DNA of 64,000 nucleotides, taken from assembly GCF_014217685.1 (NCBI RefSeq), contig NZ_CP043653.1, positions 2,298,419 to 2,362,418 of the forward strand. The letters run 5' to 3'. Position numbers and translations under genes: made by a program. Every line of letters begins with the position of its first letter. Position 1 is the first letter of the stretch. The notes below the pieces were generated by a model that ran no database searches, was not told the origin of the DNA, and worked only from the letters and a program-made list of their open reading frames with translations. Of the stretch, positions 43,512-45,967 are shown in pieces. Origin of the DNA: Glaciihabitans sp. INWT7. Lineage in GTDB: Bacteria > Actinomycetota > Actinomycetes > Actinomycetales > Microbacteriaceae.

Positions 43512-44138
43512 CTATTCACCTGCATCGTTGTGGTTCGAGACCTGCTGTACCGGGAGTGTGAGGGGCCGCCAGGGTTCCCGACGAGTCTCGAACTCGGTGA
43601 TCTCCGCTTCGTTGCGCAGGGTGAGTCCGATGTCGTCCAGGCCTTCGAGCAGCCGCCACCTAGTGTAATCATCGATCTCGAATGGCACGGTGACGTCGCC
43701 GATCGTCGCTGTTTTGGCGACGAGATCGACGGACGCCTCGATGCCGGGATTCGCGTCGATGGCGGCCCACAGCACCTCGAGGTCCGATTCGCTGATCTCG
43801 CCGGCGAGCAGCCCCTGCTTTCCGGAGTTTCCGCGGAAGATGTCGCCGAAGCGGGGGCTGAGTACGGCGGCGAATCCATAGTCGCGCAAGGCCCACACTG
43901 CATGCTCGCGGCTGGATCCGGTGCCGAAATCCGGGCCGGCGATGAGCACGCGGGCGCCGGCGTAGACGGGATTGTTGAGCACGAAATCGGGATCCTGACG
44001 CCACGCGTAGAAGAGCGCGTCGTCGAATCCGGTCTTGGTGACCCGTTTGAGGAACACCGCGGGGATGATCTGGTCGGTGTCGACGTTGGCACGCTCGAGG
44101 GGCACGGCCACGCCCGTGACCATGGAGACCTTGTCCAT
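43512..44138 (-). CDS. leuD: 3-isopropylmalate dehydratase small subunit
   Basis: A 208-residue partner of LeuC in leucine synthesis (2- to 3-isopropylmalate). Family motifs: [82 protein letters not shown] and [23 protein letters not shown]. The start overlaps the leuC stop by 1 nt (TGATG), coupling translation. Its stop abuts the murA start. Confidence 0.94.
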
Positions 44139-45628
44139 CAGTTGCCCGCCGTTCCGCTGGTCGAGGAGGGCACTCCAGCGCCCGTATCGAGACCCGAAGT
44201 ATCGAGACCGAGGTCCCACGGCGAACTCAGCGTCCCGCGGATCGCGGTCGCCGCTGCCACGAGCGGCGACACCAGATGGGTGCGCCCACCCTTGCCCTGC
44301 CGACCTTCGAAGTTGCGATTGGAGGTGGATGCGCAGCGCTCGCCCGGGGCGAGCTGGTCGGGATTCATCCCGAGACACATCGAGCAGCCGGCGAAGCGCC
44401 ACTCGGCGCCGAAGTCCTTGACGATCTGGTCGATGCCCTCGGCTTCGGCCTCGATGCGCACGCGGGCCGAACCCGGTACGACCATGACGCGCACGCCATC
44501 CGCCTTCTTCTGTCCCTTGATGATCGAGGCGAATGCCCGCAGGTCTTCGATACGGCTGTTGGTGCACGATCCCATGAACACCGCGTCGACGTGAATGTCT
44601 TTGAGCGGGGTGCCCGCTTCGAGGTCCATGTACTCGAGGGCTCGCTCGGCGGAGGCCCGCTCGTTCATATCGATGATCAGCGAGGGATCGGGCACTCGAT
44701 CGCTGAGCGACGCGCCCTGCCCTGGATTCGTCCCCCAGGTGACGAACGGTTCGAGTTCGTCCGCATCGAGGTACACCTCGGCGTCGAACACCGCGTCCGC
44801 GTCGGTAGCGAGGGTGTTCCAGTAGGCGACAGCCGCGTCCCAGTCCGCGCCCTTCGGTGCGTGCGCGCGGCCCTCGAGGTAGTCGTAGGTCACCTGATCC
44901 GGCGCGATCATACCCGCCCGGGCTCCCGCCTCGATGGACATGTTGCAAACGGTCATCCGGCCCTCCATAGAGAGGGAACGGATGGCGCTGCCGCGGAACT
45001 CGAGCACATAGCCCTGCCCGCCTCCGGTACCGATCTGTGCGATGACCGCGAGGATGATGTCCTTGGCCGTCACGCCCGGTCGCAGGGTGCCCTCGACGGT
45101 GATCGCCATCGTCTTGAACGGGCTGAGCGGCAGGGTCTGCGTGGCGAGCACATGCTCGACCTCGCTGGTGCCGATGCCGAAGGCCATCGCGCCGAATGCC
45201 CCATGGGTCGAGGTGTGGGAGTCGCCGCAGACGACGGTGATGCCCGGCATCGTGAGGCCGAGCTGCGGGCCGACGACGTGGACGATTCCCTGATCGATGT
45301 CGCCGAGGGAGTGCAGGCGCACCCCGAACTCCGCGCAGTTGTTGCGCAGGGTCTGGATCTGCGTGCGGCTCGTGAGATCCACTATGGGCTTGTCGATGTC
45401 GAGGGTCGGGGTGTTGTGATCCTCGGTGGCGATGGTGAGGTCGAGGCGGCGCACCGGGCGACCGGCGAGGCGTAGCCCGTCGAAGGCTTGCGGGCTCGTC
45501 ACCTCGTGCACGAGGTGGAGGTCGATGTAGATGAGGTCGGGGTTGCCGTCCTCGCCCTTCACGACGAGGTGGTCATCCCACACTTTTTCGGCGAGTGTGC
45601 GGGGTGCTGCGGGGTTTACATCGTTCAT
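44138..45628 (-). CDS. leuC: 3-isopropylmalate dehydratase large subunit with repeat-encoded tail
   Basis: A 496-residue [4Fe-4S] hydratase. Cluster Cys are in [10 protein letters not shown] and [15 protein letters not shown], with [31 protein letters not shown] upstream and [22 protein letters not shown] near the end. The family normally ends at about [14 protein letters not shown]. Here about 22 residues follow ([23 protein letters not shown]), encoded by a family-B palindromic repeat at 44156-44209. GGAGAG lies 9 nt before the ATG. Expression is probably controlled by the leucine leader peptide at 45758. Confidence 0.94.
44156..44209. repeat. Palindromic repeat family B, copy inside the leuC 3' coding end
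   Basis: GCTGGTCGAG (44156-44165) plus GTATCGAGACC twice (44184-44194, 44199-44209). It encodes about residues 474-491 of LeuC and stops 18 nt before the leuC/leuD junction. Confidence 0.75.
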
Positions 45629-45690
45629 GGTCGTGCGCTCTCCTATACCAAACGGTGGTCAGCCAGCGGCGCGTAAACCCGCACCAGACT

Positions 45691-45729
45691 CCGCGACGAG
45701 GGAGGCCTGGAAACTAGGACTCGTCGCGG
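45691..45729 (-). promoter_or_regulatory. Attenuator-like hairpin in the leuC leader
   Basis: CCGCGACGAG and CTCGTCGCGG form a perfect 10-bp stem with a 19-nt loop. In the transcript the first arm overlaps the end of the leader-peptide frame, so a ribosome stalled at the Leu codons or running to the stop would affect folding differently. No U-run follows directly; control could act on termination or on the GGAGAG ribosome site of leuC. Confidence 0.55.
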
Positions 45730-45758
45730 CTACGAAGAAGAAGCAGACCGAACAACAC
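45714..45758 (-). CDS. leuL: Leucine-rich leader peptide of the leuCD operon
   Basis: A 14-codon frame, MLFGLLLLRSRDES, with five leucines including four in a row (CTG CTT CTT CTT). It ends at TAG 45714-45716, 86 nt before leuC. The GTG start lies exactly 6 nt after a TAGCCT -10 element, so it is predicted to be translated from a leaderless mRNA. The downstream hairpin overlaps its last codons. Leader peptides with runs of the regulated amino acid are the hallmark of ribosome-mediated attenuation; here leucine supply would set leuCD expression. Confidence 0.65.
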   Translation of the reverse strand: MLFGLLLLRSRDES

Positions 45759-45764
45759 CGCTTC

Positions 45765-45770
45765 AGGCTA
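45765..45770 (-). promoter_or_regulatory. -10 element of the leuL-leuC-leuD promoter
   Basis: On the minus strand TAGCCT is followed by GAAGCG and the GTG of the leader peptide. Upstream to 45967 no other gene, hairpin or repeat is evident. Confidence 0.5.
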
Positions 45771-45967
45771 ACACCGTTTGGGAATCCCCCTCGGATGATG
45801 GTTCGGCGCGCTCGCATCCGGTGCGGCAATCCCGCCTACGCGCTCTCCGGGGGCATCGAGTCGAGGGTATGTGCGGGTTCAAGCTGCCTCAGGTCGCCTT
45901 TAATCCCGAGTCGAAACACGGCGGCACCGAGCTTCCCGACGCTGCAAGGGGGAACCGATCTGGGGGA

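Follow-up and report, generated by a model that had tools for sequence, protein, structure and literature searches.

A LEU-type leucine leader element precedes leuCD in Microbacteriaceae at loci without NdgR

The leuCD genes of Glaciihabitans sp. INWT7 are preceded by a leucine-rich leader frame, a 10-bp stem and a putative pseudoknot, which together almost certainly form a LEU element. In their 2005 survey, Seliverstov et al. reported this element from regions upstream of actinobacterial leuA genes (PMC1262725). As characterized in that survey, it resembles the structure in our window (the whole stretch of 64,000 nucleotides analyzed here) in its leader peptide with a run of Leu codons, its pseudoknot, and a base stem between the Leu codons and the Shine-Dalgarno sequence (SD) of the next gene. 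The passages of the survey on LEU place it upstream of leuA and mention a similar pseudoknot within a single transposase gene, whereas the copy in the window lies upstream of leuCD, a site that they do not name (PMC1262725). The element is therefore of a known kind, and what seems new is its position before leuCD and its mutual exclusion with the regulator NdgR. In the open-licence literature we found neither a LEU element before leuC nor an exclusion with, or a replacement of, NdgR.

Leader, stem and leuCD all lie on the minus strand of the window. The identities of leuC and leuD were confirmed with NCBIfam models. The features are as follows:

45765 to 45773, minus strand: extended -10 element TGTTAGCCT (TGT TAGCCT)
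45714 to 45758, minus strand: leader frame VLFGLLLLRSRDES (MLFGLLLLRSRDES); 14 codons, GTG start read as Met, TAG stop
45735 to 45746, minus strand: Leu codons CTG CTT CTT CTT, putatively regulatory and also the 5' strand of the predicted base stem with the leuC SD
45720 to 45729, minus strand: 5' arm of stem S1, CCGCGACGAG; 99.7% of cells paired among 62 sequences
45704 to 45709, minus strand: 5' arm of the pseudoknot helix S2, CAGGCC, in the S1 loop; placed in the window by comparison with relatives
45691 to 45700, minus strand: 3' arm of stem S1, CTCGTCGCGG, forming a perfect 10-bp stem with the 5' arm
45660 to 45664, minus strand: 3' arm of S2, GGCTG, leaving one G bulged on the 5' arm; placed likewise from relatives
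45638 to 45644, minus strand: leuC SD, AGGAGAG, predicted to pair with the Leu codons
44138 to 45628, minus strand: leuC, 3-isopropylmalate dehydratase large subunit (NF004016 and TIGR00170 above cut-off)
43512 to 44138, minus strand: leuD, 3-isopropylmalate dehydratase small subunit (TIGR00171 and NF002458 above cut-off)

The -10 box TAGCCT (45770-45765) ends exactly 6 nt before the leader GTG, as the sequence-only reading had stated, and this geometry is common to nearly all related leaders. Among 136 elements, the distance from the end of the TAnnnT box to the start codon is 6 nt in 113 and 7 nt in 17 (130 of 136), and an extended TGn occurs in 113. When random positions further downstream were used as a control, with gaps of 5 to 7 nt allowed, TAnnnT was found at 8 out of 2,720. 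The leaders start with GTG (94), ATG (39) or CTG (3), and an SD-like 4-mer 5' of the start codon was found in none of the 136. Because of this promoter geometry and the lack of SD-like motifs, leaderless translation of the leader, as proposed earlier, is well supported by the comparison. The position of the promoter suggests that transcription starts at the G of the leader GTG. At the other end, the last base of the leader stop codon is 45714, at a distance of 86 nt from the leuC ATG (45628). The stop codon lies inside the loop of the S1 hairpin, and the 3' portion of the leader is the 5' arm of S1. We also observed a 10-nt inverted repeat with CCAAACGGTG in the promoter (45772-45781) and CACCGTTTGG just 5' of the leuC SD (45648-45657). 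It is kept in two loci (L004 and L005) and partial in the other members of the genus that were compared, and could be a DNA site or chance.

The earlier view that a leaderless leader peptide is unusual does not hold, since RNA-seq has already shown LeuL1 before leuA of Streptomyces lividans to be leaderless (PMC8079986). As far as that source describes it, LeuL1 (MRFGLLLLSCRGEGL) resembles the window element in its leaderless transcript and in having no typical terminator; it differs in controlling leuA, while the window element stands before leuCD (PMC8079986). Corynebacterium leuL has the LLLLRR core of such a leader, again before leuA (PMC8709942, PMC5784534). A review describes leuL as transcription attenuation (PMC8709942), and its target is leuA, whereas the window element stands before leuCD. 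The LeuL1 peptide also occurs before leuA in eight of the genomes that we compared (loci L146, L148-L150, L153, L156, L157 and L160). Canestrari et al. 2020 reportedly described leaderless polycysteine uORFs in mycobacterial cys operons. These are like the window leader in being leaderless frames with a run of the sensed amino acid, with cysteine instead of leucine. Several cysteine biosynthesis genes are described as being under translation attenuation (PMC13236596), and the 2005 survey, where it treats the cys leaders, reports no conserved terminator-like hairpins (PMC1262725).

Glaciihabitans sp. INWT7 carries a second copy of the element, 83% identical over 105 nt, with the leader MLFGLLLLSCRDES. 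It lies directly before leuA: the gene that follows is a reading frame of 491 aa, located at the locus edge and matched by leuA of relatives. A search by DNA similarity returned matches in 90 of 149 Microbacteriaceae genomes, including the source genome. All 139 related places precede leuA (87, one of them a divergent leuA paralogue) or leuC (52), and none lies elsewhere. At least three consecutive Leu residues occur in the leader of 136 of these 139 places, typically as (V/M)xxxxLLLLSCRDES, which bears out the earlier identification of a leucine leader peptide with four Leu codons before leuC. With a covariance model (R1) trained on 62 elements and containing S1 as the sole structure, matches extended to 147 of the 149 family genomes (source genome included, completeness of at least 90%). 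Two or more matches were found in 98 genomes, one in 49 and none in 2, under filters that were stricter in this search and may lose weak copies. Named records with pattern matches were two Frigoribacterium sp. and Lacisediminihabitans profunda, the last of these a member of Microbacteriaceae. In the window, Rfam 15 gave no match at the gathering score and, up to E = 5, only a weak Rothia-sucC match on the opposite strand (E 3.5). We note that the LEU element (45560-45860) has no covering Rfam 15 family despite its presence in several families and orders of the phylum.

Copies within a genome are slightly more alike than copies across genomes (0.733 versus 0.703, 0 of 5,000 randomizations). We do not claim concerted evolution: the leuA copy of the same genome is the best leuA match for only 4 of 44 leuC copies.

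The distribution of the element bears directly on whether the frame and the hairpin are chance, functionless features of GC-rich DNA. The isolated fold is indeed ordinary (z = -1.43 for the single-sequence minimum free energy; 18 of 200 shuffles fold as well, not significant). The window contains 10 perfect stems of at least 10 bp with loops up to 30 nt (nested stems counted apart, 6 distinct places), and five mononucleotide shuffles of the window contain 1 to 6. A 10-bp stem alone is not rare in this GC-rich window, and it is conservation that lifts the hairpin above chance. The restriction of all 139 related places to leuA or leuC and the near-universal presence in the family refute chance, to which we give practically no credence.

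The perfect 10-bp hairpin before leuC was confirmed in both coordinates and sequence, as was the lack of a U-tract 3' of it (AGTCTGGTGC). In the 62-sequence alignment, S1 shows compensation from A-U to G-C in 5 sequences. A second helix, S2, joins CAG(G)CC of the loop to GGCUG of the tail, with two-sided changes in 3 of 5 pairs. Its cells are paired in 72.6% of cases, a value partly lowered by misalignment of the tail. Taken together, S1 and S2 have 18 cells with two-sided changes, compared to 7.3 +/- 2.3 in shuffles, and a covariation score of 0.079 compared to 0.054 (neither reached in any of 500 shuffles). The number of pairs with two-sided change (4 versus 3.6) and of further pair types (11 versus 11.5) showed no excess over shuffles. 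A control slid by +2 positions gave 19 two-sided cells, but only 39% were paired. The column-wise covariation ranking put an S1 pair first (z 10.2); second place went to a pair belonging to neither S1 nor S2 (z 9.7), and the ranking also returned mixed, partly meaningless pairs. In a scan of helices, S1 ranked at the top (z 7.7) and S2 reached z 5.7, beside an overlapping pairing GAGT/GCTG with z 5.9. A competing inner stem CCU/AGG was rejected, as it showed no covariation; the scan lists other overlapping pairings.

We also compared loop and tail independently of the alignment. In 38 elements the longest loop-tail helix measures 6.95 bp with the native partner and 5.92 bp with swapped partners (0 of 5,000), and it reaches 7 to 9 bp in most of them; this set comprises 32 elements from other families and six leuA-paralogue copies, and close relatives inflate the contrast. 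The signal is weak in 132 elements dominated by Microbacteriaceae (4.89 versus 4.76 bp, 161 of 5,000). On this comparative evidence, the S1 hairpin is one arm of a conserved pseudoknot, as in the LEU element. Leader, leaderless promoter geometry, Leu run, S1, S2 and their spacing are each shown by comparison as parts of the element. The earlier reading had named a lack of conservation of Leu codons and stem in close relatives as refuting it; instead both are conserved, as seen in the Leu run and in the covariation of S1 and S2. Between S1 and the 3' arm of S2, the leuC element contains a small extra hairpin, GGTGCG/CGCGCC (45668-45685), in an insertion that is missing from most of the 62 aligned elements.

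Eight of the ten S1 pairs are invariant in the 62 sequences, third codon positions included, and this exceeds what pairing or coding would need. It hints at recognition by something else. A protein that binds the LEU RNA, with the leader frame playing a secondary role, would account for such invariance, and a helicase-domain protein was proposed in the 2005 survey (PMC1262725). However, a translated sensor would require conservation of the Leu run, of the place of the stop codon and of the leaderless start, and all three are conserved; we regard control by such a protein as improbable.

In the fold of minimum free energy of the window element, the leader is paired to the ribosome-binding site of leuC, with 7 bp between UUCUUCU and AGGAGAG among these pairs. 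We compared the duplex between Leu run and SD with the duplexes obtained after swapping partners among elements, which does not remove relatedness. Native partners bind better in the 83 leuA elements (-10.73 versus -9.69 kcal/mol, 0 of 5,000) and, modestly, in the 49 leuC elements (-8.27 versus -7.74 kcal/mol, 111 of 5,000). When the genus of the window was represented by one element per gene, the corresponding counts were 0 and 60 of 5,000. The choice of Leu codons points in the same direction. Of 136 leaders, 131 have CTT as their final Leu codon, and CTT is otherwise rare (87 of 2,030 Leu codons in the portions of leuA and leuC coding sequence that were read, and 5 of 201 across five genes of the window). 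CTT is likely preferred here because the Leu codons pair with the downstream SD. The distance from the Leu run to the stop codon is also constant, at 6 codons in 116 of 136 leaders.

We then folded 135 elements with a ribosome masking the Leu codons, in a model that ignores pseudoknots and kinetics. The SD became more open in 96 and less open in 15. When a ribosome at the stop codon served as the reference instead, stalling on the Leu codons left the SD more open in 82 and less open in 19. Mean SD openness rose from 0.225 in the free RNA to 0.372 in the stalled state for leuA and from 0.280 to 0.488 for leuC; the values with the ribosome at the stop codon were 0.276 and 0.324, respectively. 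For the start codon, mean openness fell slightly on stalling (leuA 0.582 to 0.525, leuC 0.525 to 0.478). In the window element, the SD has an openness of 0.21 in the free RNA, 0.51 on stalling and 0.19 when the ribosome sits at the stop codon; openness of the start codon rises on stalling (0.66 to 0.90). These calculations support the pairing of the Leu run with the SD and its predicted release by a stalled ribosome.

We propose that the LEU element probably controls leuCD by translational attenuation. Transcription would begin at the G of the GTG, and the 14-codon leader would be read from the extreme 5' end without an SD. With plentiful leucine, the ribosome would reach the stop codon in the hairpin loop. 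Once it has paused there and departed, the run of Leu codons behind it would be exposed and could pair with the leuC SD, hairpin and pseudoknot bringing the two ends together, and leuC (and leuD, if coupled) would be little translated. When leucine is short, the ribosome would stall on the Leu codons, covering both the run and the 5' stem arm, and the SD would be left free. We infer the leucine response itself, and any polarity that Rho might add.

This proposal departs from the earlier description of the leader as textbook attenuation, which our results do not support. A classical trp-type attenuator carries a terminator with a U-tract in its leader and a mutually exclusive antiterminator stem, whereas S1 in the window has no U-tract. 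Because of this lack, terminator-type attenuation fits less well. Translational control is the better reading, given that the hairpin is an arm of the pseudoknot and that the leuC SD is the pairing partner of the Leu codons. Rho-dependent termination, or an attenuator of transcription that lacks a U-tract, would instead let the position of the ribosome gate the entry of RNA polymerase into leuC. The logic of the leader peptide would be identical; one review places expression of the leuA enzyme in C. glutamicum under 'leucine transcription attenuation' (PMC8709942), and Rho has been suggested for cys leaders (PMC1262725). However, the longest T run within 14 nt after S1 is at most 2 in 102 of 132 elements and at least 4 in 5 of them, which sustains the earlier suspicion that the mechanism may not be standard termination. 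Moreover, the supported second helix is the pseudoknot, the one alternative inner stem tested lacking covariation, and Leu codons selected to match the SD would not be expected if transcription were the regulated step. We therefore consider control at the level of transcription unlikely. Reinitiation from the leader was set aside as the main mechanism, since the median distance from stop codon to gene is 71 nt here and reinitiation peaks at 10-11 bp (PMC4833913).

Translational attenuation also bears on older data. According to the 2005 survey, changes to the leader in cited S. coelicolor mutants deviated from the predictions of classical attenuation (PMC1262725). The mechanism of LEU was left open there for want of a terminator and given the ambiguity of the Streptomyces mutants (PMC1262725). 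These mutants do not decide the mechanism, because changes of Leu codons would also alter the base stem. More generally, codon changes may mislead because the Leu codons double as the anti-SD strand.

Outside Microbacteriaceae, the element precedes other genes of the pathway. R1 matched 29 of 246 genomes in a sample of the phylum (four of them from Microbacteriaceae) and 151 of 198 in a sample of the order; both counts are lower bounds because R1 was trained mostly on Microbacteriaceae. At 51 distinct places outside the family, the gene 3' of LEU is leuA, a leuA paralogue or leuB, and in none of the 51 is it leuC. LEU precedes leuB in two genomes of the order (L167 in G090 and L227 in G106; leuB of L167 confirmed by NF002898). 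It also precedes a paralogue of 2-isopropylmalate synthase that has diverged from LeuA (53-58% identity), in L192, L193, L195, L196, L199, L200, L228-L231 and L233. The paralogue type was confirmed by NF002991 in two Microbacteriaceae loci, L192 and L195. Six copies (L192-L200) have leaders that end in RRH or RCH followed by DGA or GGA, with compensation from G-C to A-U in the stem. For comparison, we hand-picked 20 genomes that had a LEU match and belonged to 13 other families of the order. When every R1 match up to E = 1 was compared with the position of leuC, none of the 20 had LEU at leuC. A rescan of the 20 leuC loci gave five matches, all weak (E 0.25 at best), and the 500 nt upstream of leuC contained none of them. 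In the genomes examined, LEU before leuC was seen only in Microbacteriaceae.

In other actinobacteria, leuCD is controlled by NdgR and its orthologues, IclR-type regulators whose genes adjoin leuCD (PMC4340878), that is, by a DNA-binding protein, in contrast to the RNA element found here. All 20 leuC loci of the other families (one being the source of the query) have an NdgR-like gene with IclR_C and HTH_IclR domains, divergent and next to leuC. In corynebacteria NdgR is called LtbR. An NdgR-like gene was found at none of the 33 LEU-bearing Microbacteriaceae leuC loci with at least 900 nt upstream (32 distinct, as that of the window was counted twice). Likewise, none of the 149 whole Microbacteriaceae genomes has an NdgR match at E <= 1e-40. 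The same search recovered NdgR in all 20 genomes of the other families (2.2e-160 for the query itself, 1.8e-88 to 1.9e-134 for the other 19). In four Microbacteriaceae genomes run beside this control, three had only distant relatives (best E 1.6e-9) and one had no match at E <= 1e-5. The leuC loci checked thus have NdgR or LEU, never both.

A simple one-for-one swap is opposed by the genomes with a single R1 match. We hand-picked 30 of these 49 Microbacteriaceae genomes, and 29 lack both NdgR and LEU at their best leuC match, the sole exception being G084, which has LEU; the count covers the best leuC match and leaves out second LeuC homologues in G150 and G215. In the last 120 nt before leuC of L272 (G029), we observed an apparent decayed LEU, CTTAGCCGCCGCGACGAG with a broken partner arm; the single R1 match of G029 precedes leuA. 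Judged by its sequence, this remnant looks like a decayed element, as later loss predicts. On a weak LeuC tree (fasttree), the states with and without LEU need 14 changes within Microbacteriaceae, and this tree cannot order gain and loss, since 54 of its 120 inner branches are open, many rows are short and some genomes are present twice. Our own reading, rather than a result, is that NdgR was lost before or together with the gain of LEU at leuC, and that LEU was then lost repeatedly.

The correlation between the two states suggests that RNA control may have replaced protein control at leuC. Tentatively, and at a little less than even confidence, we suggest that at the base of Microbacteriaceae the leuA element was copied before leuCD and took over from a lost NdgR, and that, with the copies before the leuA paralogue and leuB, LEU would be a spreading RNA regulon of the leucine pathway. 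The leuC locus offers a clear translational model of the element. The exclusion of NdgR and LEU at leuC is a candidate natural case of an RNA leader in place of a transcription factor. If this is true, a protein circuit would have been replaced by a duplicated ribosome-sensing RNA.
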